Position numbers and translations under genes: made by a program. Of a stretch of DNA of 64,000 bases, positions 34,199 through 49,290 are shown in pieces (position 1 is the first letter of the stretch; each line of letters starts with the position of its first letter). The notes under the pieces were generated by a model. That model was given only the letters and a program-made list of their open reading frames with translations. It was not told the DNA's origin and ran no database searches. Source of the DNA: Rubrivivax sp. (GTDB taxonomy: Bacteria > Pseudomonadota > Gammaproteobacteria > Burkholderiales > Burkholderiaceae_C); NCBI GenBank assembly GCA_022842305.1, contig JALHPY010000001.1, positions 62,001 to 126,000 on the forward strand. The letters are read 5' to 3'.

Positions 34199-34621
34199 TC
34201 AAGCTACGACAAACGGGTTGAGCAGGTTCACTCCCGTGCCAGCGAAGTCGGAGGTGTTCCTGGTCACGACAGTCAGTCCGTTGACCAGAGCGATTGCAGC
34301 AATTTGCTTGTCCAGTTCGTGCTCGGGATGCGGTACGCGCAGTCGCCCCCAAACCTGAGCGGCATGGCCGTCGAAGGCAAGGATGTTGCTCTCGTAGTGG
34401 TCAAGCACCTCGTCCAGCCAGGCGTCGAGCAAGGCAGCCTGTTGGAGGTCACCTCGGTGTCGGATCAATTCCACCCCGCGGCGAAGCTCACCCACGGAAA
34501 TCGCGGACAGGTAGAGCAACTCACCCTTGGCAGCGCTGTCACGCAAGAAGCCGGTGACCCCGGGGTTCGCCTTGTCCTTCTTGCGCGCCTCGCTGACGAC
34601 GTTGGTGTCAATCAAATACAC
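34199..34621 (-). CDS. vapC: PIN-domain ribonuclease toxin (VapC/FitB family)
   Basis: A 140-aa PIN-domain protein. The acidic residues expected for the metal centre are visible: Asp in LIDTNVVSE, Glu in SVGELRRG, Asp in DKQIAAIAL and Asp in TRNTSDF. The overall form (LIDTNVVSE start, FVVA end) is closest to the FitB branch. Its 5' end overlaps the antitoxin gene by 14 bases, the usual toxin-after-antitoxin order. In active systems the toxin cleaves RNA and is held inactive by its partner, and the complex represses its own promoter. Confidence 0.88.
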   Translation of the reverse strand: MYLIDTNVVSEARKKDKANPGVTGFLRDSAAKGELLYLSAISVGELRRGVELIRHRGDLQQAALLDAWLDEVLDHYESNILAFDGHAAQVWGRLRVPHPEHELDKQIAAIALVNGLTVVTRNTSDFAGTGVNLLNPFVVA

Positions 34622-34844
34622 GCGGGGCCTCGGTGGCGGGGTTCACCCGCTCGAAGTCGGCGTCGATGCCGACGTTCGGCATGGACGCCACGACTTCTGC
34701 AAAAGTGCGCCTGCGCGGGCGCACCAGGGCTTGGGCAAGGATGGCGCGGTGTTCTGCCTCGGCACTGTGGCCGTGCTCACCGGCACGCTCCTTGAGTGCC
34801 CTGACGACGGCTTCGTCGACGCCTCGAACGAGCAGATTGGCCAT
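34608..34844 (-). CDS. FitA/VapB-type antitoxin
   Basis: A 78-aa protein with a ribbon-helix-helix N-terminus (MANLLVRGVDEAVVRALKER) and a short C-terminal part that would wrap the toxin. The HGHSAEAEHRAIL segment is typical of FitA-like antitoxins. The gene precedes and overlaps the PIN toxin gene. Confidence 0.85.
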   Translation of the reverse strand: MANLLVRGVDEAVVRALKERAGEHGHSAEAEHRAILAQALVRPRRRTFAEVVASMPNVGIDADFERVNPATEAPRVFD

Positions 34845-35480
34845 TTGCCGCTCCTGGAACTTGGGTGCTATCAATGATAGCGCGACTCCAGGCGAGGTGC
34901 ATCCTTCTTGCTGTCGCCGGCCTTGCCTGCGGTCAGTCACACGGGCATGGTCAGCCCAGGGCGTCGAGCCTATGGGGTCTAAAGGTCCGCCGCTCCGTTG
35001 CCACACCGCGCCATGCTCGTTGTGGCTGGGATCAGAGATGGCCTCCAGAAACTCGGCGTAGCTCCCGACGCCGCCAACGTCCTCTGGCGGACATGCGTTT
35101 TCACCCGCGATTCACAACGACCAGGTGTTGAATGAGGGGCCGGGCAGCAGCGCGAGGTGTCGCCAAGTGACGAGGCCCACGCAAAAGTAATCTTGGGTCT
35201 GGGGGTAGTGTCGAAGGCGCCCTACCCCGCCCAGAACCGGCAATGTACCTTGATAATCCTTATTGTCACGGTAGCCATTCTTTGCCTCCAGAGCTGCGCC
35301 TACTGAAGCTCAATCACCCGACGGCGCGAGGCTGGAGAGTGCGTGATCGACCGCTGGGGCTGTGACGGCCGATCAGTGAGCCCCGCAGTCCAACTGTTGG
35401 CGCCGACCGCAACGTGCGCCTCAGCACCGACGAACCGGTGAGCCACGGATACTGGAACTGTCGGAGGTTGCGGCGGCAGG
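34845..35480. other. Intergenic region of about 635 bases
   Basis: No intact gene is recognised. The first 60 bases should hold the promoter of the toxin-antitoxin operon (transcribed leftwards). The remainder has short open frames without ribosome binding sites. No tRNA or terminal repeats were detected. Confidence 0.35.
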
Positions 35481-36400: not shown

Positions 36401-37333
36401 GGCGATCCCCTTTCTTTTGGCGCATAGCGCCGTTTCGTGCCCGCCCGGATTGGGAAGGCATCGTTCAAAAGACGTAGGGAACCGCTGATGAGCTACGTGC
36501 GCATCGCCGCAGAATTGTCGAGACCAGCTGCTAACAGCTGGGGGGCCGCGGCGACAAAGAGATATTTGGTAGACAGTCCCACCTGATGTGCGGGTCCGTC
36601 AAAGCCCGCCCATTAAACATATCCCACACTCCCGAATCTGTCCACCTTTCCCAAAGTGCTTGGTTGCGGGGCTCGAGACCTCAGCTGGCTGGGCTGGCGC
36701 GAACGGCGCGCGTCGAGGCAGTGGTCTGCCAAAGCAACGCGAAATGCGTGTCACTTCGAAATGGGCGACATCTGCCATCGCGAGCGGCGCCATGTCTCGC
36801 AGAGTCCTCGTGGGAAATCGTGTAATGGATGTTCGCTACGCAGCATTCGAGTGTCGAACCGCCAGAGGCGGAGCCTGGTAGCTTGCGGCCGGTACAGGGT
36901 TGATAGGATTTTGATAGGAATGTAGTGCAGACTCGGTTGCACTGACTGAGGCATCAGCAAACCCGTCAAGTTCGATGAGTACCAACAGTTCCAGGTTCAA
37001 ACCATGGCAGCCCAGGGCCCAGGCTGCAAAGTACCTGGTCGACTTGCACCCAACTTATGGCATTGACGGCCTGTGGAACGGTTCCACTTTCCGTCGGCGC
37101 GCCGTGCACAAACTCAGCGCAAATTGCGATGTACTCGTGACCAAACTCACAGTGAAGCCAATCATCGGTGCACGTTTACTTGGCGTTTGAGTGCCGACTG
37201 GACATTCCTACTGTTGACACCTGCCGCGCAACCAACTTTCTGACTGAAGTCAACGAGGCATTTGCCGATGGACTGATGGACCGGTGGACTGATGGTCCGC
37301 GCACCCGAGCAACACCGACACAGAGGAATGATG
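36401..37333. promoter_or_regulatory. Long leader region with short repeats before the parB-like gene
   Basis: Over 900 bases without a recognised gene, less GC-rich than the surroundings. It contains a 9-base direct repeat TTGATAGGA at 36900-36908 and 36911-36919 (one helical turn apart), a perfect inverted repeat AGTGCA/TGCACT at 36924-36943, and an 11-base direct repeat TGGACTGATGG at 37269-37279 and 37285-37295, the latter just before the parB-like start. These could be operators or partition sites. Confidence 0.45.
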
Positions 37334-38425
37334 ATGAAGGCAACGAAAGAAAACCCGGCCCAGCCAGGCCCGTTCGAAGACGCGCCCGTCGCTCCGGTGG
37401 AAACGGGCGGCGTCGGCGGTGGTGCCGTCAATGAACGCGCGGTCCAGCCAGTCCCGAGGGCTCGGTCACAGACGAGCAGCGATTTCGTTCGAAGCTTGCT
37501 TACTGTGAGGCCGGAGTCGGTCCCGACCGCGCGACCAGACGCCAGTGGCCAGTCGTCCGGGCAAGTGGTTGCGGCTGCGGCGAAGGTGGAACCGACACCT
37601 CTTGCAGAGCGCATTGCAGCAGATTGCATAAAGCCGAGCAGATTTCTGACCCGGGAGAAGACCTACTGGGAGAGTAAAGAATTTGAGGCGTTCAAGGAGG
37701 ACATCCGGAGTTCCGACGGGAACATTCAACCTATCAAGGTGAGGCCCGTTGCCGAAGAAGGCAAGATCAAGTACGAAGTGGCCTTCGGCCATCGCCGACA
37801 TCGTGCCTGCCTGAACTTGAGGCTGCCCGTGCTCGCGGTAGTGGAAGAAATGGATGATCTGAAGCTCTTCACGCAGGCAGTGAGAGAGAACACCAGACAC
37901 AAGGATTGCAGCGCATACGCGCGCGGCGTCCAGTTCAGGCTCGCCATCGACACTGCGGTGATCAATGAAGATCAGAACTGGAACGAACTGTTCGGCGTTG
38001 AAAAATCCATGGTCTACAAGCTCTTAAAGTTAGCACGACTTCCGATTGAAATTGTTCAATCGTTTGCCTGCCCCTCGCAACTGCAGACAAGGTGGGGCCC
38101 GGGTCTGACCAAGGTGGTGAAGGACGACTGGGAGGGAGTGCTGAAGAGAGTCGCCGAGGTGGCTCAATGGCCGGCGCCGAGAAATCCCAGGCTCGTGCTG
38201 GAGTATCTGCTGAACAAGCCGCAGTCGACTTCGGACGCAATGACGAGAGAGGTTCCCATTAAGAGAGAGGATCTGACTGTGGCGACATTGAGGATTCCTC
38301 ATGCCGCCACGGGCGGAGGGATCGAGGTTGAGTTTGCCGCCGGTGCAGTCGAAGAAGCGGTCTTGCTGGCCACCTTGCGGAAGATGCTGAAGATCGAAGG
38401 CGTGGACGGCGGATCCGTCATGTAG
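37334..38425 (+). CDS. parB: ParB-like partition/nuclease-domain protein without a neighbouring parA
   Basis: A protein of about 363 aa. After a low-complexity N-terminus (about residues 1-80) the ParB-type domain is seen: IQPIKVRPV, then YEVAFGHRRHRACLNL (the GHRR box) and FTQAVRENTRHKDCSAYARG. A central HTH-like part follows (FGVEKSMVYKLLKLARLP). ParB proteins bind parS sites and act in plasmid or chromosome segregation; no ParA gene is adjacent. Three successive ATG codons (37328, 37331, 37334) are possible; the last has the best spacing from AGAGGA. Downstream an IS element follows. Confidence 0.8.
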   Translation: MKATKENPAQPGPFEDAPVAPVETGGVGGGAVNERAVQPVPRARSQTSSDFVRSLLTVRPESVPTARPDASGQSSGQVVAAAAKVEPTPLAERIAADCIKPSRFLTREKTYWESKEFEAFKEDIRSSDGNIQPIKVRPVAEEGKIKYEVAFGHRRHRACLNLRLPVLAVVEEMDDLKLFTQAVRENTRHKDCSAYARGVQFRLAIDTAVINEDQNWNELFGVEKSMVYKLLKLARLPIEIVQSFACPSQLQTRWGPGLTKVVKDDWEGVLKRVAEVAQWPAPRNPRLVLEYLLNKPQSTSDAMTREVPIKREDLTVATLRIPHAATGGGIEVEFAAGAVEEAVLLATLRKMLKIEGVDGGSVM

Positions 38426-38952
38426 GTGCCGAAAGGGCCGGTGTTTGCTGCTCAATTGCGCGCAGTTGGAACCTTCAGCGCGTGCTGACCAGGGCCACTT
38501 TCGCGATTCGTAACCTCCGCCTCAGTCGTGCCCAACGTGCACCACGCGACCCACATCGCCACCATGGCATGCGTGAGGGCAAGCTTTCCCACATGGCCGG
38601 GGAGCCAGCGCCGCGCGGTGCGTGTGTGCGTGATTTCGGGTTGCCCAAGCAAGGCTCGGTCTGGAAGTTCTTGCCCCACAGATGCCTGGTGACCAAATAC
38701 GGGCCGAGGCCCGCCTCTTCCGTCAGCCGCCAAATCCCTGGGATCAGTTTCTCGATGCAGACCAAGGCGCAAGCCCTCCTGGGTCAGTGCATGGGCTCGA
38801 AGGAATGCGCTCGCCGAGGCATTGCGCTCGGCCAAGAACAGTGCGATCTGTCGATTGGCCCCCGCTGTGTTGACCAGCGCTGGACCCATTTTGAGAAGGC
38901 TAAACCTAAGTGAGGGGCGTGACGTACCGGGTTGTCTCGTTCACTTGGCCTT
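38426..38952. other. Region of unclear content upstream of the IS4 element
   Basis: Both strands have frames of about 145 codons here (plus 38482-38913, minus 38452-38889), but neither has a convincing ribosome binding site or known motif, and the two exclude each other. It was contiguous with 40361-40560 before the IS insertion. Confidence 0.3.
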
Positions 38953-38962
38953 GGGTTCACGC
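38953..38962 (+). repeat. Target-site duplication, left copy
   Basis: GGGTTCACGC, identical to 40351-40360, directly abutting the left inverted repeat of the IS4-family element. Confidence 0.85.
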
Positions 38963-40350
38963 CACTCTTGTCCAAGATAACTTTGAGGAGTTGGGCCAAC
39001 TCGTGATGTAGGGTGAGCGTGTATCGCCAAACACCCGCCACCCATCCCGAGAGGCCCAACGTGAAGACATCATGCAGCATGTTCAGTCAGCTCCTCAAGC
39101 TGTTCCCGCGGTCTGAGTTCGAAAGGCTTGTGAAGGACACGGGCGCGGAGTACGCGGCCAAGGGTTTCACGAGCTGGAGCCAGATGGTGGCGATGCTGTT
39201 CTGTCAGCTCGGTCGTGCCCACTCGCTGCGCGAGATCGAAGGCGGGCTCAAGAGCTGTGAAGGCAAGCTCGCGCACCTGGGCATCGAGGCCCCGGCGCGG
39301 TCCTCGTTGTCCTATGCCAACGCCCACCGGCCCTGGGAGCTGTTCGAGGCGGTCTTCCACGGCCTGTACGAGAAGGTCTCGGCCGCGGTCGGCGGCGGGC
39401 CGCGCAAGTTCCGCTTCAAGAACAAGCTCGTGAGCATCGACTCCACCGTCATCGACCTGAGCATGTCGATGTACGACTGGGCGAAGTACCAGCGCACCAA
39501 GGGTGCGGTCAAGCTGCACCTGGTGCTGGACCACGACGGTTACTTGCCAAGCTTCGGCGTGGTCACCGACGGTACGGTGGCCGACGTGCGCGTGGCGCAG
39601 TCGCTGCACTTCGACAGCGGCACCATCGTGGTGGACGACCGGGGCTACAACGACTACGCGCTGTTCTCGCGCTGGTGCGGTCAAGGCGTGTTCTTCGTCA
39701 CCCGTATGAAGATTGACGCCCGATACGAGGTGCTGGAGCAGCGGCCGATCTTCAAGCCCGAGGGCAACGTGGTGGCTGACCAGCGCATCCGGTTGAGCAG
39801 CGAACAGGCGCGGCGCGACTGCCCGCACGAGTTGCGGCGTATCGAGTTCATCCACCCCCAGACCGGGCAGATCTTGGTCTTCCTGACCAACCTGCACAAG
39901 CTCAGCGCTGCCACCATCGCGGCGATCTACCGGGACCGCTGGCAGGTGGAGTTGTTCTTCAAGGCGCTCAAGCAGAACCTGAAGATCAAGACCTTCGTGG
40001 GCACCAGCGCAAACGCCGTCAAGACGCAGATCTGGACAGCACTGATCTGCATGCTGCTGCTGCGCTACCTGATGCTGCGCTCGCGCTTCGGCTGGAGCCT
40101 GTCGAACCTGGTGGCGATGCTGCGCATGAACCTGTTTACCCACAAGGACTTGCATGCGTGGCTGCAAGAACCCGTCGCAAGCCCGCCAGACCCGGCACTG
40201 GATCCGCAGGCGACGATCGCCTTCACCTGATCCTGGACAGCACCGGGCGAAAAACAGGGGGGCAGCAACTTCGGATCGGGCGATTGGCAACGCTAAACCC
40301 GCGTCAGACAACGGGCGCGCTGGCGGGACTCGCCGGTCTTGGACAGCAGT
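38963..40350 (+). mobile_element. IS4-family insertion sequence with 10-bp target duplication
   Basis: The element is 1,388 bp. Its ends are imperfect inverted repeats, CACTCTTGTCCAAG on the left (38963-38976) and, read on the complement, CACTGCTGTCCAAG on the right (40350-40337). GGGTTCACGC flanks it directly on both sides (38953-38962 and 40351-40360), a perfect 10-bp target duplication in the size range of the IS4 family. Perfect duplication indicates a fairly recent insertion. Confidence 0.9.
39061..40230 (+). CDS. IS4-family DDE transposase
   Basis: A 389-aa transposase. Catalytic residues are visible as Asp in SIDSTVIDLS, Asp in VVDDRGYNDY and Glu in the Y-2-R-3-E-6-K signature (YRDRWQVELFFKALK) that defines IS4. 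The N-terminal domain (FSQLLKLFPRSEF, then QLGRAHSLREIEGGL) matches the ISPepr1-like branch. GTG 39061 is chosen because GAGAGG lies 6 bases upstream and the family N-terminus starts right there. No frameshift; the element may still be mobile. Confidence 0.92.
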   Translation: MKTSCSMFSQLLKLFPRSEFERLVKDTGAEYAAKGFTSWSQMVAMLFCQLGRAHSLREIEGGLKSCEGKLAHLGIEAPARSSLSYANAHRPWELFEAVFHGLYEKVSAAVGGGPRKFRFKNKLVSIDSTVIDLSMSMYDWAKYQRTKGAVKLHLVLDHDGYLPSFGVVTDGTVADVRVAQSLHFDSGTIVVDDRGYNDYALFSRWCGQGVFFVTRMKIDARYEVLEQRPIFKPEGNVVADQRIRLSSEQARRDCPHELRRIEFIHPQTGQILVFLTNLHKLSAATIAAIYRDRWQVELFFKALKQNLKIKTFVGTSANAVKTQIWTALICMLLLRYLMLRSRFGWSLSNLVAMLRMNLFTHKDLHAWLQEPVASPPDPALDPQATIAFT

Positions 40351-40565: not shown

Positions 40566-41681
40566 TTAAGCGCCACCCGAGTACAGCGACGGCGGCTTTC
40601 CGATGAGGGCGGGCGGCTGGAAAGCTGCGGCCGTATTGGCCGTGGCCTCCGTCGAGGCGTCCACCATCCCGGTCTCGAAGCTGGGGTGGATGGCTTCTTG
40701 GGGTGCGCTTGTATGCGACTCATCCGCAATGCACAACCACGTCTCCGGTGTCGCGCAATCAATGCTATCGCCTTGATGGGTTACCTGCACTTGAAACGGT
40801 TCGTCCTCAGTTCGTGCGGGCGGAATTGCGGCAGCAGGTGGCTCAGCGTTCTCCGTGACATCGAACTCCAGCTTGATGAGCGTGTTCGTTCGCCGCGGCT
40901 TGGCGCGTCCTTCATCAAGTATGTGCACATTTATCCAGAGCCGCAGTTGGGTTTTGAGGTCACAAAGTGCCGCGCCAATTAGTGGCAGGTCGCTTCGAGC
41001 CAGCAGTATTGGCTTTCGGGCGAATGATTGGCCGTCGAGCAAGCTGCGACCAGAGATTCCGAGGGTGGTCTGCTTCGCGCCAACCGTCACGGAGCAAAAC
41101 TCAGCCAGGACTTCGTGCACTACATCCGAAGTGCCGCGTGAGGGGCTGCGTTGGAGCCGCTTTTGGATTCGAAGCGAAGCGTGGCCAGGCACGAGCAGGT
41201 CCAGCGGGACCGGAATCCGCATGCCGAGGAAGGTGGCTTGGCGAAGGTCTTCGTGGCGGAGCGGCTCTCGCTCGGCCTCTGCTTCGGGACTTGTCGTCGG
41301 CGCGTCAATCGTCGTCTGCGCTGCCTCTGAATTAGCCGAACCGATGAGACGGCAGAATTGCAGTGCAACATCACGGCATTGCGCGACGGTAGTCGGGCTT
41401 GCATCAGGACCTAATGCAAGTACGGCCTCGCCGTAGTGGAACTGCCCGCTGCTGGGGGACGTTTGTATGAATCGCTGGAACTTCTCGCCATCGATGCGCA
41501 GAAAGTCCGCCAGGGTGGCTTGCGCCGAGGCAATCAGCTCGGTCACGCGCGCCGGGAGGATGTGTTCGTCACTAATACGTACACCCCGGTCGGCTGCATT
41601 GCCGGCGCTTGGATGCACGGTGAGTGTCGGCTGGGCGCCGCGAATCGTGAGGATTTCGTGGCTGATGGCAAAGGTAGACAT
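40566..41681 (-). CDS. 371-aa protein of unknown function beside the large recombinase
   Basis: A 371-aa soluble protein with no signal peptide. The first third includes RVTELIASAQATLADFLRID; the middle (about 120-260) is beta-rich with LGMRIPVPLDLLVPGHASLR and LCDLKTQLRLWINVHIL; the C-terminal 100 residues are low-complexity, rich in Ala/Thr/Pro/Glu. I recognise no family. It is on the same strand as the large recombinase gene, 240 bases after its stop, and the IS4 insertion lies just downstream. It may be an accessory factor of the same mobile unit. Confidence 0.6.
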   Translation of the reverse strand: MSTFAISHEILTIRGAQPTLTVHPSAGNAADRGVRISDEHILPARVTELIASAQATLADFLRIDGEKFQRFIQTSPSSGQFHYGEAVLALGPDASPTTVAQCRDVALQFCRLIGSANSEAAQTTIDAPTTSPEAEAEREPLRHEDLRQATFLGMRIPVPLDLLVPGHASLRIQKRLQRSPSRGTSDVVHEVLAEFCSVTVGAKQTTLGISGRSLLDGQSFARKPILLARSDLPLIGAALCDLKTQLRLWINVHILDEGRAKPRRTNTLIKLEFDVTENAEPPAAAIPPARTEDEPFQVQVTHQGDSIDCATPETWLCIADESHTSAPQEAIHPSFETGMVDASTEATANTAAAFQPPALIGKPPSLYSGGA

Positions 41682-41921: not shown

Positions 41922-44900
41922 TCACGCTCCGTTGGGATTGCGGGCTTGACTGAATGCGTCTAGGCAAACGAGCGCAGCCGCAAATTCGATGGAGTCGCAT
42001 GCGTTGTCGCGGGCGTTCACGTCGCCTATCCGTAGCACGAGGCGCGCGTCGATACTCAGTCCCGCCTGCTCAAGGCTGACGGCGGGTAGCCGCGAGGAGG
42101 GCTCGACTTCCTTGCATAGTGGACGCTGTCTGATGGAAGGGAGCGCTGGCTCTATCGTGGTCCCAGTTGCCGGAAGCCAACCCGCGTGTACGGCCATCGC
42201 CTGCACCCGCTGCATCGCCGCTCCTGACGGTGGCTTGAGGGGCGCCAGCATCTTCAGCCGGGATTCCGTGTGAATGAACTGCCTTGCCGCGATGGCGATC
42301 AAGGAAAAGTGTTCTTGCCGCCACATGCTGAACTCGCGGCGCGGACCTATGACGCCCTCCCAGTCACTGTGAGGAATGGAGGCCGTTTGCTGCAACTCAT
42401 CCAATGACGCGTCGGACAGCGAAGCCAGCCCTGCTCGAAGGCGGCTATGGGCATTGACATGCAGCAGGCGCAGAAGTCCGTGCCTGCCTAGTCGGCTTGA
42501 CTTCTGTTCCCGGGCCAGCTTGAGCAAGCGCTCCTTTTCCGCATAGGCCAGTCTCTCGTAGACAGCTTCCGCGGAAGCATGCAGCCTCCTCACGAGGTCT
42601 ATATCCAGCAGGGTGTATTCGGCGGCCTCTGACTGCGTCCGTCCGCGCGACATATAGATCAGTGCCCTCAGAGCGTCTGCAGGAGATGCAGGGCGCGTCG
42701 CTCTCGTGCGGACTTGGGTCAATTCGACCGGCGCAAGCATCCTGTCTAGTGCAACAACCTTCACCTTGTCGGCGGTCAGACCTAGGCAATTGGTGCTTGG
42801 TGCCGGAGCGGCCAGGTCGATGGCCACATCGCTCAAAATGTGTAGGTAGCTTCTGAACGTGGTCGCCGGGTGGGCGTGACCCATGATGCTCGCCACAGCC
42901 CAGCTCCCGCGCCGCGTGCCCTTGGGAGACTTGGTGCCGAGCAGGACCTCTGGTATGCGGCTGTCGCTGGCGGCAGCGCTCAATCCGGGAAACTGCCTTC
43001 CGGGCGACTCCACGGCGATCCAGACCCGTGTCGCAAATCCCTTCCTCAGCTTGTGCATCGTGGACGTAGCTTGTCCCGTCAATGACTGGAGCTGCTCGTT
43101 CACCCGTGTCCTTGCTCTGATGCCATCGATGGGCCTTGACGGGTCGTTCCTGCTGGCGAAGGCCGGGGGGTCTTCCGTGCCGACGGCCTCACAGTCATGG
43201 AAGGCAGCCAGATGCGCCAAGGCCCGCAACTCGATGGGCTGCAACTCGAACAATAATGGCACGACCCTGCGCGCGGCATGGGTCTTCAGCTTGCGGAGGC
43301 GATTGCCTTGCACCACGACCCGTATCGGCTGCGCGGTCAGGAAGAGGTCCGAACGCCGCAGCCCTGTGGCCTCGCCGCCGCGCAGGCCGAACCGGAAAGC
43401 CAGCAATGCGATGCACTGCAATTGCCACCCTTCGGCCTCATCATCGCCGTCCTGGGCCAGCCGATGCAGCAGTTCAATGTAGGTTGCCTCGTCGACAAGG
43501 CCCGCCGAGCCCAGTTGGACGCGGTCGCCGACCGCCAGCACGGACCAGTCGATTTCCGGCAGGCCGGCGGCCATCTGGGCGAACCTATGAAAATTCCGCA
43601 GGCCGTCGTAGGTGTCTTTCAGGTTTTCCACGGTCGAGCCGTCGATCACCGCCGCATAGAACTCCTCGACCTCCAGGGCCTCCATGGCCGCGAGGTCGAC
43701 GGCATAGCCAATGGACTGGAAGCGGGGGGACAGTGCCGTGAAGTAGCGCAGAACGCTGGAGGTCGCCAGTTTGCGCGACCGGCCAGGGCGCAGCAGAAGG
43801 TCAATGGCCCACAGGCACAGGAGTTGGATGGCCGATGAGATCTGCTGTGCCTTGGAGTGAATTTCCCTGGCCAACTTATCCGCGGCATTTGTCCTGTGCT
43901 TTGAGCCGTCCGCGGCGGCGAGTTGTCTGAGGCTGCGCCTGAGCTCTTTGATCAACTCGAATGCCGCGGCGGCGCGGGTGCTGGCACCTAGGATTAGGTC
44001 CTCCGCTTGCTGCTCGGCATCTGATGCAGGTGCGCTGAAGTGCGTGGCAGAAGTCAGCTCGAAATCCAGGGGTGTGTCTTCTGGCAGCTCTGGTGCATGT
44101 GAGGCCTGCGCCGAACCGCCTGGCGTCTCCTCGCCCATCGCGGTGTCGCTGGACAGCTGTGCGCTTACCCATCGCCCGCACCGCAACCTGACCCAGTCGC
44201 CCCAGCCAAGCGATGCGCCGCAAACCCTGCCTGACAGGTAGGCCGCGACAGCGCCGGGCAGTTCTATGGCATTGGCCTGGCCGACGACCAGAAGCACGCT
44301 GGCGAGCAGCTCATCGGCTGTCGACAGGTCTTCCTCCGCAAACTGGTCGGCGCAGGCTGTAACGAGGTCGCCTGCCTTGTCATGGCTGGCGGCCCACGCA
44401 GACTCTCGACGTATGGCTCCGCGGATGCGATGCTGAAGCAACCATGCGCTACGCATCGAGATCGCAAAGCGCTGGATGGGCGCCGCGGGCTTGGCGAAAA
44501 GGTCGTCCGAAGGACTCCACTCTATATAGAAGGCGTCCAGAAGCCTGACGATGCGCCAGGAGTGATCGTCGACGATCACGCTCCTGAGCAGATCGTGGTG
44601 TGTGATTCTGCTGAACAGGGCCAAGTCGTAGACGGCCAAGCACTGGGCCTTCAGGACGGAGATGCGGGATCGCTCTCCTTCGCGTTCGAACATGGTCTCG
44701 AGCGCCTGGCACAGCAGGGCCCTGGTTTCGAGAGACTTCGGGGCCAGTGGCGTGAAGGGGGTGGGCTCGATCGGCCGGAGGTCGTAGCGCATGCCAATGC
44801 GGGCCCGCCTGCCGTTCTCTGTCCATGCGGTGCCAGCCAGTTGGAGCAGGCGTTCGTAGCGCAGTGCTCCGGTTGACGACGGCATGCCCTGGCCATCGGC

Positions 44901-47594
44901 GATCAGCCGGTGGCTCAGCTCCGCGATCTGGTCCTCGGTCAACTGGCATATCAGGGCGGCCATTTCGCCGTCGGGCGTGACCGCCGCCTGCGAGGCGTCG
45001 TCCAAGGCAGTGCCCTCAAGCTTGTTGGCTTGCGTCAGCTCTTGGACGAAGGCCCGGATGATCTGATCCGCCTGGTGTCGCTGATGTGCGAGCCTGTCTT
45101 CCTTGGTGCGACGCCGGTTTGGTCGGGCGGTCGAGGTCCAGCTGACTTTGAGGTCGTCCACGTCGGCTAGGTGGCTGCTCCAGAGCGGCGGCGCGCGGAA
45201 GCCAAGGAGGTCAAATACCATGGTGATCGCCGGACGTATCGACTCCGAATCCTGGCGCCACACGCGCATCGAGAAGTCTCCGTGCGTCAGGGTTGCGCCG
45301 TCGCTGTGCCCCAGGATGCTGTCCACGATCTCCAGATCGGCTCGCGCAAGGCTGTGCAGCTTCGTTCGGAGCCGATGGCGGAAGAAGTTGAGAGGGAGCT
45401 TGGACTCGATGCGATGCGGATCGCCCGGCAGTCCCCGATGCCTGTTCTCCAATGCTGCGAAGCGGAGGCCCGCCTGGCTGGGTTCAAGTATGAACAGGAG
45501 GCTAGGCAACTCGACGTGTTCGGCGCGGGCCCTGCCGTGTGGCTCGGAGCCCAGTTCCGAGAGCAGCCGCGGCAGGTGCGAATCTACATATAGAGACTTG
45601 AAGGCCCTGCACAGCTGGGTGGGGAGTGGAACCAGGCGTCCTGTTTCCGCGATGGGCGATGCCTTGTCGTCGATGAAAACTTCGCTGTGTTCCCAGTCGA
45701 AGTCGTGCACGGAGCGCCAGAGGCCGCTGACCGGCCGGGCTCCGGTGGCGGCGCGCAGCGCCGAGTCCCAGTAGAGTGCTACCGCATTGTGAAATTGAAT
45801 GGGATCGTTGGCGCGTCGATGCCTCTCAATCAATTCGCGGGCATGGTGGAAGCCGGCGCAGGCGAGGTCGTCGTCTACTGCTTCCAGCAGACTTCCCGCT
45901 GCATTGATTGGCAGACGCGGGTCGTCCTGCGTGGATGCAACCAAGCGCGGGTGGAACGGCGCAATCGCATCGCTGTGGTAGGCGGTGTAGACGGTTGAAG
46001 ATGGCAGCACCGACGCCCGATTTGAAGCGAGCAGTCGGGCGAGAACGTGATCGTGAGTCTTCTCGAAGGCGGTCTGGCCCAGCGAGCGGGCGAGCATCGA
46101 TGACTGCAGCCGGGCCGTGCCTCTGCCTTGCTTCACCCAAGCGCGGAACGCGCCTCGGATCGATGACTGGCGGTCCGGCCAGATCTGGCCGAGCAGCAGA
46201 ACGCTCGGCGCATTCGATTGGGCGGCGCGGAGTGCACCCAGTGCGTCGACAGGGATGGCGAAGCTCAGCGATGTGGCCGCAGCCGTGACAAGGTTCTTGG
46301 TGTCTGCCTGCGGGCGCCAGTGACCAGGGCGCCGCGGAGGCGCCCGGACCAGTAGTCCGCGGGCCAGATCGATGCGCCACTCTGAATCTGCGTCTTCAAC
46401 CGAGCCGCTAGGGATGAGTGCAACCTCTTCGAGGGACATGCCCGCCGACAGGGCAACGCTGACCAGAGCCGCGAGCGTGCGCTCCTTGCTGCTCGTTGGG
46501 TGTTCCAAGGTGGCGTGAACCAACTTGTCCAGGTCCTCCCGCTCCGGCGGCGACAGCAAACTCCAGTCCCAAGGCAGGAATCGTGCGGCAGCGCCAATCC
46601 GAAAGCGGATGGACTGGATGTGCCGGTCCTGTTCCTCTGCCGTCTGTTCTGGATCTACCTCGTAAACCGCGAGTTCTTCGTCGTCCTGGTCCCCGGTCCT
46701 CGACAAGGCAAGGGGTGCAGGTCGCGGCACAGGCTGTTCTGGGTCCTCTGCTGCAAGGGCATCGACGGCCTTCTGGTGCTCTAGATACTCACTCCAGGGA
46801 ATCTCTTCGCGACCGAACACGTCGGAGCCAGGCCAAGAGCCGCTGAAGGGATCGTTCTCGAAATTGGCTAGGCGCCGGACCCTGGTAAGGAAAATCTTGT
46901 GTGTCGGCTGGAGCTCGGACGTCTGGCCGCCAAGAGCATCCTCTGGCCTCTTGAGGCGTTGGTTGATTTCCTCCCAACAGTCGGTCGATGCCCCCAACTT
47001 GAGCACCAGGCCATGCCAAGCGCTGGTGTCTTCCTCCAGCGCGGCCTGAGCCAGGCTCTTGCAAATGCGGGCCAAGATCAGGTCCGGCACGGGCTTGAGT
47101 AGGAACAGGCGCAGGCCGTGGAGAAGGGCCCAGGCACGCAATCGTCGGTGGGGCGCATTGGCGGCGCCAAAGGGATATGGACGCTGCATCATGAAGAAAA
47201 GGGCGTCGTGCCGGACCGACAGCACCCCTTCCTCCACGTCCGCCGAATACTCCTTGTCGCTGCTGGCGTCGACGGCGATTCGGGCCGGCATCTTGGCGTC
47301 AAAGAAGGAGGGGCGCCGCTCCCAGGCGGCTGCTAGCGCAGCCATTCCGTACGTCTGGGTTCCGTTCAGGTCCCATCGCTTGAGGATGGGCGCCACGCCT
47401 TCCAGGGCATCTAGAGTGCACCGATACAGTGCGCGCTGTGTGGCCGTGCGAACCTGCAGGGCTCGGGTGAGCAGCGACAGCGGAACCGCCACGCCCGCAG
47501 CCGCTGACCAGTCGATGATGGCCTGATAGATATCCGGCCCAATGGTCAGGCGGGCGCCGCTGGTCGGCGGGAAAGTGGGGACCTCTTGGCGCAA
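41922..47594 (-). CDS. Very large protein with two tyrosine-recombinase-like domains
   Basis: A 1,890-aa single open frame. Around residues 610-780 a first recombinase-like domain has ALRAATGARPVSGLW (Arg I), HRLRTKLHS (H-x-x-R) and ILGHSDGATLTHGDFSMRVW, where Phe stands at the expected Tyr. Around 1390-1590 a second domain has FRFGLRGGEATGLRRSDL (Arg I), KTHAARRVVPL (the Lys strand), HKLRKGFATRV (H-x-x-R) and MGHAHPATTFRSYLH with a proper Tyr. Long helical stretches lie before, between and after. Ordinary integrases are 300-450 aa. It probably acts in the integration or excision of a mobile element. No start other than ATG at 47594 gives a longer protein. Confidence 0.8.
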   Translation of the reverse strand: MRQEVPTFPPTSGARLTIGPDIYQAIIDWSAAAGVAVPLSLLTRALQVRTATQRALYRCTLDALEGVAPILKRWDLNGTQTYGMAALAAAWERRPSFFDAKMPARIAVDASSDKEYSADVEEGVLSVRHDALFFMMQRPYPFGAANAPHRRLRAWALLHGLRLFLLKPVPDLILARICKSLAQAALEEDTSAWHGLVLKLGASTDCWEEINQRLKRPEDALGGQTSELQPTHKIFLTRVRRLANFENDPFSGSWPGSDVFGREEIPWSEYLEHQKAVDALAAEDPEQPVPRPAPLALSRTGDQDDEELAVYEVDPEQTAEEQDRHIQSIRFRIGAAARFLPWDWSLLSPPEREDLDKLVHATLEHPTSSKERTLAALVSVALSAGMSLEEVALIPSGSVEDADSEWRIDLARGLLVRAPPRRPGHWRPQADTKNLVTAAATSLSFAIPVDALGALRAAQSNAPSVLLLGQIWPDRQSSIRGAFRAWVKQGRGTARLQSSMLARSLGQTAFEKTHDHVLARLLASNRASVLPSSTVYTAYHSDAIAPFHPRLVASTQDDPRLPINAAGSLLEAVDDDLACAGFHHARELIERHRRANDPIQFHNAVALYWDSALRAATGARPVSGLWRSVHDFDWEHSEVFIDDKASPIAETGRLVPLPTQLCRAFKSLYVDSHLPRLLSELGSEPHGRARAEHVELPSLLFILEPSQAGLRFAALENRHRGLPGDPHRIESKLPLNFFRHRLRTKLHSLARADLEIVDSILGHSDGATLTHGDFSMRVWRQDSESIRPAITMVFDLLGFRAPPLWSSHLADVDDLKVSWTSTARPNRRRTKEDRLAHQRHQADQIIRAFVQELTQANKLEGTALDDASQAAVTPDGEMAALICQLTEDQIAELSHRLIADGQGMPSSTGALRYERLLQLAGTAWTENGRRARIGMRYDLRPIEPTPFTPLAPKSLETRALLCQALETMFEREGERSRISVLKAQCLAVYDLALFSRITHHDLLRSVIVDDHSWRIVRLLDAFYIEWSPSDDLFAKPAAPIQRFAISMRSAWLLQHRIRGAIRRESAWAASHDKAGDLVTACADQFAEEDLSTADELLASVLLVVGQANAIELPGAVAAYLSGRVCGASLGWGDWVRLRCGRWVSAQLSSDTAMGEETPGGSAQASHAPELPEDTPLDFELTSATHFSAPASDAEQQAEDLILGASTRAAAAFELIKELRRSLRQLAAADGSKHRTNAADKLAREIHSKAQQISSAIQLLCLWAIDLLLRPGRSRKLATSSVLRYFTALSPRFQSIGYAVDLAAMEALEVEEFYAAVIDGSTVENLKDTYDGLRNFHRFAQMAAGLPEIDWSVLAVGDRVQLGSAGLVDEATYIELLHRLAQDGDDEAEGWQLQCIALLAFRFGLRGGEATGLRRSDLFLTAQPIRVVVQGNRLRKLKTHAARRVVPLLFELQPIELRALAHLAAFHDCEAVGTEDPPAFASRNDPSRPIDGIRARTRVNEQLQSLTGQATSTMHKLRKGFATRVWIAVESPGRQFPGLSAAASDSRIPEVLLGTKSPKGTRRGSWAVASIMGHAHPATTFRSYLHILSDVAIDLAAPAPSTNCLGLTADKVKVVALDRMLAPVELTQVRTRATRPASPADALRALIYMSRGRTQSEAAEYTLLDIDLVRRLHASAEAVYERLAYAEKERLLKLAREQKSSRLGRHGLLRLLHVNAHSRLRAGLASLSDASLDELQQTASIPHSDWEGVIGPRREFSMWRQEHFSLIAIAARQFIHTESRLKMLAPLKPPSGAAMQRVQAMAVHAGWLPATGTTIEPALPSIRQRPLCKEVEPSSRLPAVSLEQAGLSIDARLVLRIGDVNARDNACDSIEFAAALVCLDAFSQARNPNGA

Positions 47595-47615: not shown

Positions 47616-47870
47616 CTATCGTGGACCGACTCTACCTGAGAAGGGTGCGCCAAGTGCTTGAAAACTGGCTAAAAGTCCGTTTGCCACCAAGTTCGTACGA
47701 TTAAAAACCATCAAACGTGGTGCTCTCATAACCCAGTCTTTAAGGTACTCAAGGTCGCGTTTGAGCGTGGCCGGCGACACCTCCAACTCGTCCAGCAACG
47801 CCTGAAAACTCACGTGTCCGCGGTTGCGGATGAGCATCTCGATCTTGTAGACGCGGGCAGTCTTGGTCAT
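47616..47870 (-). CDS. Short DeoR/WYL-type HTH protein, probably truncated
   Basis: An 84-aa reading frame starting MTKTARVYKIEMLIRNRGHV, then FQALLDELEVSPATLKRDLEYLK. This is the winged-helix N-terminus of WYL-domain regulators. The segment APRLMVFNR fits the short strand that follows the helix, but after it the WYL domain, which normally adds over 200 residues, is missing and the frame stops within 85 codons. It ends 21 bases before the large recombinase gene. Either insertion of the recombinase unit cut a WYL gene, or a stand-alone HTH regulates the recombinase. Confidence 0.55.
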   Translation of the reverse strand: MTKTARVYKIEMLIRNRGHVSFQALLDELEVSPATLKRDLEYLKDWVMRAPRLMVFNRTNLVANGLLASFQALGAPFSGRVGPR

Positions 47871-48138
47871 CGAGCGTCGAGACTTCTGCTCGCTCGCTGT
47901 TGGTGCGTTACCTACTGTAGCTGCAGCTTCGGGACCTACCGCCTCAATTCCGGGGATCGCGTCCACCAATTCCAGGGGTCTCATGGCAGGACATTGACCT
48001 GTCGCAAGCTCAAATACTGAGCCACTCTGCGACAGCCGGGAAGCATGATCCGAGCGTACCTGGCTCACTATTTGAGCTGGTCGCCTGCCATCCTGAGCTG
48101 CCCGGCCAATGCCGCCCACGCCCAAGGAGATGCTCGCC

Positions 48139-49290
48139 ATGCTGTCCGACCACGCTTGCCGGCCTTCCACGTCCCCGTCCCAGCCCGGCTTCGAGATTGG
48201 CTGGGACTACGCCCACTACCGGCTGGTGCCGCCGCCGGAACACCTGCTGGCCGGCAACCCGGTGCGCGACGGCTGGGAGGCTGGCCAGGCGGTCTTCGGC
48301 CTGCGCACCCTGCGGCCCACACCCCAGGTGAAGAAGTGGCTGCAGCTCAGGCTGGGCGCCTGGATGCGCGGCAAGCACTTCGACCTGTTGCAGGTGACGC
48401 CCAACTTCCTGCGCCGCATCGAATTGGCCGCCTGCCCGATCACGGGGGAGGCTCTCACCCAGGGCACGGGCCTGCCCAGCGACGCCTCGGTCGACCGCGT
48501 CAACAACCAGGCCGGCTACGCGGTTGGCAACCTGGCGGTGATGAGCGTGCGGGCAAACCAGGCCAAGTCGCTGTACGGCTGGCGCGACTGCGCGGAGTTC
48601 GCGCGCCAGATCGAGGTAGGCGGGTTGGGCCAGATCGATGGACTGTCGGCCGCCTGCTGGGCGCGCCTTGCAGCACTGGCCAGCCTGTGCACGCCGCTGA
48701 TCCACGCCGAGGCCGCCTGCCTGCCGCTGCTGGTGCTGCCGCCGCCGCGGCTGCGCGTCATCAATCCCGCGCAGGCGCTGCAGGTGGTGCTGACGCTGCG
48801 CTACACCCGCCCGGGGCGGATGCCGCAGGCCGACCGGCTGGAGGCGCTGTTCCCCAGGCCCGCCCGCACTGCCCTGCGCAGCCTGATGACGTCGCTGCTG
48901 GCCCGGCGCATCGCCGCCGGTCCCGGCGCGGACGCCGCCGCTCTGGGCCGGGCGATGCAGAACGCCTGGGCCAGCCCGCAGATCCTCAGGCACTGGCAGA
49001 AGCTGGCGATGAGCCTTGGGGAGGCCGCCTGCGAACGCATCGTCGAGCAGGCCGCCACCAGCGGGCTGGCCGACCCGTCCTTGCGCTGCCTGCCGCTGGA
49101 AGCGGCCACCGACGGCTGGGCGTTGCAGTCCGAGGGGCGGGTGACGGAGGAGGTTGTTATGAACGCCGACTCCACCGACGAAGTGTCAAACGGCTGGAGC
49201 CCACCGGCCGTCCCGATCGACGCTACTACGCCGGCCCGGCGCATGGCAGGCCAAAGGCTGCAACAAGGTCTGGCGCGGCTGGCACACTGA
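48139..49290 (+). CDS. HNH-like fold protein of unknown function
   Basis: A protein of about 383 aa. The segment ACPITGEAL followed by SVDRVNNQAGYAVGNLAVMS and RANQAKS recalls HNH/McrA-type nucleases with a CPxTG knuckle and an (S/V)DRxxN motif; the second Cys pair of a full zinc site is not obvious. The rest is helical with many Ala/Leu and arginines. ATG 48139 is chosen because AAGGAG lies 9 bases upstream, although ATG 48109 and 48130 are in frame. No signal peptide. It opens a group with a 59-aa gene and a PD-(D/E)XK-like gene. Confidence 0.6.
   Translation: MLSDHACRPSTSPSQPGFEIGWDYAHYRLVPPPEHLLAGNPVRDGWEAGQAVFGLRTLRPTPQVKKWLQLRLGAWMRGKHFDLLQVTPNFLRRIELAACPITGEALTQGTGLPSDASVDRVNNQAGYAVGNLAVMSVRANQAKSLYGWRDCAEFARQIEVGGLGQIDGLSAACWARLAALASLCTPLIHAEAACLPLLVLPPPRLRVINPAQALQVVLTLRYTRPGRMPQADRLEALFPRPARTALRSLMTSLLARRIAAGPGADAAALGRAMQNAWASPQILRHWQKLAMSLGEAACERIVEQAATSGLADPSLRCLPLEAATDGWALQSEGRVTEEVVMNADSTDEVSNGWSPPAVPIDATTPARRMAGQRLQQGLARLAH

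Follow-up and report, generated by a model that had tools for sequence, protein, structure and literature searches.

Recombinases with incomplete catalytic sets

As a rule, each protomer of a tyrosine recombinase has all of the catalytic residues, and XerC, XerD, XerA and XerH have one catalytic domain per chain. In Flp and the SSV1 integrase the catalytic tyrosine is delivered in trans, and a paper of 2013 counts only two tyrosine recombinases with such a donation (PMC3646895). Strand-biased circularizing integrative elements (SEs) have four core genes, IntA, Tfp, IntB and Srap, of which Tfp is described as having the recombinase fold without RHRY and is proposed to bind and align DNA; RITs, as outlined in the same source, have three recombinases of 315–410 aa, each with a catalytic Tyr (PMC10214605). 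In GInt a ginABCD operon stands at the 5' end of the island, and GinC is described there as being without the first Arg, beside complete recombinases (PMC5385486). Here we describe P0001, a fused recombinase encoded in a 64,000-nucleotide stretch of DNA from a Rubrivivax sp. (the window), and its relatives, a family that, judged from sequence, possibly has a new catalytic layout.

A fused protein with three recombinase-like regions

P0001 is encoded on the minus strand at 41922–47594, where the single uninterrupted frame of 1,890 codons claimed by an initial annotation, which had not given the strand, was confirmed. Since the start codon is TTG, the exact N-terminus is unsure; the frame is open to 47615. 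In a Pfam scan the sole family matched was Phage_integrase (PF00589; residues 1384–1523, E 3.6e-8, above the cut-off), and searched as a single sequence against the PDB the protein had no match at E 1. The N-terminal region (residues 1–324; 46623–47594, minus strand) has an unrecognised fold, and its slice profile ("An") returned, among the matches listed, a sole recombinase at E 2.7. It is followed on the same strand by D1 (residues 325–560; 45915–46622), D2 (residues 562–829; 45108–45911) and the B half (residues 830–1890; 41925–45107), which is a gene of its own in split relatives and contains the D3 core (residues 1384–1590; 42825–43445). Of the two recombinase domains of the initial annotation, D2 and D3 in our layout, the first is upheld as recombinase-like and the second as complete; a probable third, degenerate one at about residues 325–560 had been overlooked.

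By sequence D3 is a complete enzyme domain, as had been proposed, with R1405, K1437, H1514, R1517, H1573 and Y1583 in place and PF00589 above its cut-off. In the B half G1403, R1405, E1408, K1437, R1443, R1517, G1572, H1573 and Y1583 are invariant in 19 of 19 sequences, and H1514, the His II of the HxxR box, is present in 17. Profile searches with each half separately, suggested at the same time, gave XerA and other recombinases for the B half (best E 6.7e-10) and the catalytic domain of XerD for the A half (1a0p, E 4.4e-6), the latter match reaching from the Arg box of D2 to three residues past the LGH His.

D2 is thereby matched in fold to a tyrosine recombinase, with a Tyr that is not conserved and a His II that is mostly Asn. 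In the A-half alignment R620 (Arg I; codon 45735–45737), K644 (the β-hairpin Lys; 45663–45665), R653, R739 (Arg II; 45378–45380) and H763 (His III; 45306–45308), all on the minus strand, are found in 19 of 19 sequences. Arg I and the LGH, here residues 761–763, had been recognised from the start, and the Lys had gone unlisted. The H-x-x-R assigned to this region did not hold, the aligned box being N736-x-x-R739-H740, with Asn for His in 17 of the 19. The homologue alignment upheld Phe at the D2 tyrosine position of P0001 (F774; 45273–45275, minus strand); within the family this column holds Y in six sequences and F in five and is otherwise varied. The adjacent S775 is kept in 18 of the 19.

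D1 shows varied residues where Arg I, His II, Arg II and His III would stand, and taken alone the domain has one invariant column among the 19 sequences, Y536 (codon 45987–45989, minus strand). The top match of the D1 profile in the PDB was XerH (5jjv, E 0.026), and a XerC-like protein (4a8e) was matched too (E 0.18), while ribosomal protein L35 accounted for four of the seven sequences listed (E 0.04–0.3). The A-half profile aligns D1 to XerA over the catalytic domain (5hxy, E 0.11). In the alignments to 5jjv and 5hxy the Y536 column falls on the tyrosine of an IYTH motif, which in the 5jjv match has, by hand count, a chain number one above Y344, the published catalytic tyrosine of XerH (PMC5241119).

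Fused and split relatives

By alignment P0001 is a member of an old, conserved protein family. Homologue searches found matches in 4 of 100 related genomes and in 11 of 399 genomes of the order, each figure including the source genome. Six more frames, full-length and collinear and 1,799–1,875 aa in size, came from a local search (G012, G290, G323, G183, G310 and G063); they have 18–24% identity to P0001. The Tyr-less recombinase-like domain fused to a complete one, as originally read, is thus a conserved arrangement, that of D2 and D3. In other bacteria A and B occur on plasmids and chromosomes as two adjacent, often overlapping genes, with A mostly about 740–900 aa and B about 950–1,120 aa in size, and on this comparison P0001 is a fusion of two genes that are adjacent elsewhere. 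The B protein of the Vibrio pair had matches in 193 plasmid records, 190 of them from Acinetobacter, and these were mostly of partial length among the 40 listed; the A-B pair was present in five of the plasmid records examined singly (Acinetobacter and others). Many of the 40 matches listed are annotated as plain site-specific integrase. The single apparent relative that scans of a viral contig collection gave (L102) was discarded as false, being by profile an ordinary-looking integrase of 356 aa.

Genomic setting

Upstream of P0001, 141 bp before the TTG, lie the first 45 codons of a regulator gene which we take to be of WYL type (47736–47870, minus strand), cut at 47735/47736. Long frames beginning with the same 45 codons exist in three relatives (L051, L052 and L054). 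The other part of the gene was found neither in the window nor in stretches of the contig (by blastn) nor in the assembly (by protein search), the last of which returned one longer paralogue only. An insertion is thus likely, and the cut gene is what the left element border proposed at 47735/47736 rests on. With this border the recombinase would stand at an element end, in a position that resembles that of the SE and GInt operons. Neither element termini nor a target-site duplication were found, and the borders of the G012 and G323 homologues gave no empty site. SEs are further defined by inverted terminal repeats, a 6-bp footprint and the lack of an empty site; here the right terminus was not found, and the only candidate border repeat, at 40948, was rejected. 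It lies inside a 371-aa ORF, and by a rough estimate chance alone would produce about 0.5 matches of this kind.

The 371-aa ORF (40566–41681, minus strand), downstream of P0001, is a possible partner or cargo; it had no Pfam, NCBIfam or PADLOC match and no relative among the neighbour ORFs compared. PADLOC models of anti-phage defence matched none of seven proteins at E 0.01. The GC content is 58.5–64% across 34–48 kb, compared with mostly 65–72% outside. Also in this part of the window are a ParB/RepB-type partition protein (TIGR00180, above the cut-off) and an IS4-family transposase at 37292–40230, and a pair of ORFs at 34199–35006 that by eye are PIN-domain- and antitoxin-like. On the other side of P0001, beside the cut regulator, an HNH-like gene (by eye, with no Pfam match) lies at 48109–49290, and both stretches are close together in relatives.

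The flanking genes of the fused forms, a comparison that the initial annotation had also recommended, held no recurring helper apart from one matching pair: the two closest fused forms are flanked by the ORFs L032:9235-10347 and L033:6549-7358, which match each other and are on the strand opposite to the recombinase. Just upstream of A, a small ORF of 137–234 aa was observed in L006, L008, L009, L093, L094 and L095, and the relatedness of these ORFs is confined to two sets, the Vibrio and Aeromonas copies and those of two Acinetobacter plasmids. In G310 the fused recombinase has an AbiEi/AbiEii-like pair (by eye) immediately upstream, at L032:1515-3595. A conventional-looking integrase with a partner of 289–366 aa was seen within a few kb of the recombinase at L033:3419-5772, L034:12773-15126, L038:876-3246 and L009:10551-12601; a different integrase may mobilise the islands on which the large recombinase travels.

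Complementary losses in D1 and D2

Across the A half, seven columns are invariant in the 19 diverged sequences, namely Y536, R620, K644, R739, H763, G567 and R653, and the first five remain invariant when the sequences are re-aligned in three other MAFFT modes. This conservation of catalytic columns, as aligned, exceeds chance. In terms of the predicted folds, D1 retains only the Tyr and D2 everything except the Tyr and His II, so that the two domains appear to have lost complementary halves of one active site.

The same distribution was seen when a profile of the family was searched against 369 genomes of the class. Matches in 15 genomes, including the source genome, provided 15 new loci in 14 other genomes; 14 of these loci came from the search as run and the last, L117, was found with the search filters off only. 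All 15 loci have Tyr at the 536 position and, in D2, the full R-K-R-H set with its second R at 739, while the D2 tyrosine position is occupied by T in three, by F, H, Y and V in two each, and by A, C, N and S in one each; at the S775 position 11 have Ser and the other four Asp or Thr. Since the family's own profile favours conserved columns, the survey is not fully independent, but the D2 tyrosine position that varies in the same 15 rows is a built-in contrast to them. The pattern of Tyr plus R-K-R-H is also fitted by L031 and by the A frame of Sphingobium (L007); L040 has kept R-K-R-H, with an alignment coverage that stops short of the Y536 position.

The frames themselves are not uniform. 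In L109 a stop lies between the D1 frame and the D2 frame, and in L114 (G627) and L031 (G310) D1 and D2 are in separate, overlapping frames. Because the frame boundary in the latter two falls between D1 and D2, and not between A and B, D1 may be a separate protein there, although the separate frames could be frameshifts. The picture of a pseudo-recombinase joined to an active one has to be modified: a Tyr-less D2 does stand beside a complete D3, but three folds are probably involved rather than two, and "pseudo" may be the wrong word for the D1-D2 pair because their losses are complementary.

A possible composite active site

Since D1 and D2 lack complementary halves, a donation of the D1 Tyr to D2 suggests itself, as in the trans cleavage of Flp. 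Y536 of D1 would enter the D2 pocket formed by R620, K644, R739 and H763, within the same chain or between chains, and the composite D1-D2 site would sit beside the self-sufficient site of D3. The two sides of a recombination site would then be cleaved by two unlike active sites, and with D3 in the same polypeptide the synapse would hold both kinds, which might lead to cleavage that is ordered or biased to one strand, a behaviour described for SEs. Delivery of the Tyr between chains would agree with a D1 in its own frame in L031 and L114, unless these frames are frameshifts. The folds matched by profile, the residue conservation and the collinear and split homologues were observed; the composite site, DNA cleavage by it, an asymmetric reaction and a mobile element are inferred. 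We give even odds to P0001 being the recombinase for a class of integrative element not described before, with the Tyr of D1 and the set of D2 making up one composite site next to a self-sufficient D3. More specifically, the site would be obligately split in a conserved mobile-element family, with only the Tyr in D1 and only Arg, Lys and His in D2, beside a complete D3 in one chain, and would be on only when domains or protomers meet; this reading we put forward tentatively, at a shade below even.

If the split site exists, it would explain an ordered, one-sided strand cleavage, and a composite site would offer a clean test of half-of-the-sites activity and of strand order. Furthermore, in a family with the nucleophile fixed in one domain and the remainder of the set in another, trans cleavage would no longer be optional but inherent in the construction of the enzyme, and the "dead" recombinase partners of mobile elements would be recast as possible half-enzymes. 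If borne out by experiment, two degenerate domains that may work only together, beside a complete one, would amount to a novel design for an enzyme of this kind.

A different and rather unlikely possibility, still to be taken seriously, is that neither D1 nor D2 has any catalytic activity and that the two bind and align DNA, as proposed for Tfp, so that D3 does all of the chemistry, Y536 serves in packing and the R-K-R-H of D2 grips a phosphate. SE and GInt have recombinase-fold partners without a full catalytic set (PMC10214605; PMC5385486), and the absent Tyr of D2 and its His II, replaced by Asn in 17 of 19, would be in keeping with such a role. Structure prediction lent the joined site no weight either: two AlphaFold2 models, each built from three sequences, had low confidence (mean pLDDT 43.7 and 47.2), so that the composite site is without geometric support, and Foldseek with the second model gave no match under E 0.001; two unrelated chains ranked above the integron integrase 2a3v, which was third with E 0.8. 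Profile-profile comparison set Y536 of D1 on F774 of D2 (hand count) with a probability of 2%, and compared with the B half D1 reached 4% and D2 2.7%, all too weak to decide. However, a mere binder would not be expected to keep exactly R, K, R and H (19 of 19 and 15 of 15) while its neighbour keeps exactly the Tyr, and it is this pattern that speaks for the composite site.

In another reading D1 is not a recombinase fold, its matches would be due to chance and Y536 would be an unrelated conserved residue; the matches are indeed individually weak (E 0.002–0.2; the best is 0.026 in the PDB and 0.002 in a control set), with L35 taking four of the seven PDB places listed. The control set comprised 1,632 ORFs, each 150 aa or longer, from the loci analysed, after removal of 53 family ORFs; the D2 and B profiles marked 13 of its ORFs as recombinases, some of them from loci chosen for their recombinases. 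Against this set the best five matches of the D1 profile (E 0.002–0.052) were all tyrosine recombinases, with a gap before the next match at E 0.61, and the C-terminal helix was reached in four of the five alignments. The three of these alignments that were viewed put Y536 on the tyrosine of a Y-T-H or Y-T-K motif, in agreement with 5hxy and 5jjv. With a differently cut D1 profile, from a larger alignment, recombinases were five of the top six, the fifth place being taken by an unrelated ORF. The rank of the control matches, if not their weak E-values, suggests that D1 is a degenerate recombinase catalytic fold in which the Tyr was kept and the Arg and His residues were lost, and makes a chance resemblance improbable.

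Activity of D2 on its own through another nucleophile, such as S775, would draw on the Ser found in 18 of 19 sequences, yet the Asp or Thr at this position in four of the 15 new loci, where R-K-R-H and Y536 do not vary, renders it very improbable. Finally, misassembly of single-domain integrases, which the initial annotation had named as an objection and which has nothing but the unusual size of P0001 in its favour, is refuted: seven fused collinear frames occur in seven genomes, one of them (G323) a 5.4-Mb genome in one contig, and the fusion is no misassembly because the seven fused forms lie on one side of one branch of the B-half tree (99/99) and because other bacteria have A and B as distinct genes, which often overlap. 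In the A-half tree the fused group is broken by L029, a doubtful row with a stop 24 bases from the contig end and an unsure split status.

Comparison with known systems

XerC, XerD, XerA and XerH share with P0001 the fold and the residues of D2 and D3, but their chains are about 290–360 aa long in these matches. Membership in GMT and RIT was considered and rejected, and P0001 was also compared with the gene set of SEs. For the gamma-mobile-trio (GMT), the 26 sequences scanned matched 12 NCBIfam families, none of which bears a GMT name, and GmtY (NF040693) had four matches in the source genome, none of them at the P0001 locus. RIT was set aside on account of the single 1,890-aa protein and a D2 without Tyr. 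As to SEs, no homology to the intA-tfp-intB-srap set as a whole was established in the comparison with one SE: the family profiles did not recognise Tfp, IntB or Srap of SE-Pda04Ya311, where Tfp came no better than E 0.23, and the B-core profile matched IntA in short pieces (E 7e-4 in a set of four). With the A-half, D1 and D2 profiles, the Tfp encoded by pAQU1 scored no better than E 0.27 in a four-protein set.

In their arrangement, SEs are nevertheless like P0001 in that an incomplete recombinase-fold protein is encoded directly upstream of a complete one at one element end (PMC10214605), and the order Tfp-IntB was also seen in pAQU1, with the genes assigned by order. They differ in having four core genes, as opposed to one fused gene or two in the P0001 family, and in a Tfp described as lacking RHRY, whereas D2 has R-K-R-H and D1 the Tyr. 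GInt likewise pairs a recombinase-like protein with complete recombinases, and their operon lies at the island's 5' end (PMC5385486), but GinC is described as being without the first Arg, which sets it apart from a D2 that has the Arg and is without the Tyr. Flp and the SSV1 integrase resemble the composite site proposed here in that the Tyr comes from a subunit other than that with the pocket residues; in these enzymes each subunit has the whole set and the Tyr is swapped (PMC3646895), whereas in P0001 the Tyr and the rest are in two half-empty domains. A literature search, with most subscription journals outside its coverage, found no report of fused, tandem, pseudo or split tyrosine recombinases. 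The original statement that no described system has this architecture is too strong, because SE and GInt already have recombinase-fold proteins without the full catalytic set in Tfp and GinC; what stands of it is that the losses in the P0001 family are complementary between two neighbouring domains and are strictly kept in the rows seen.
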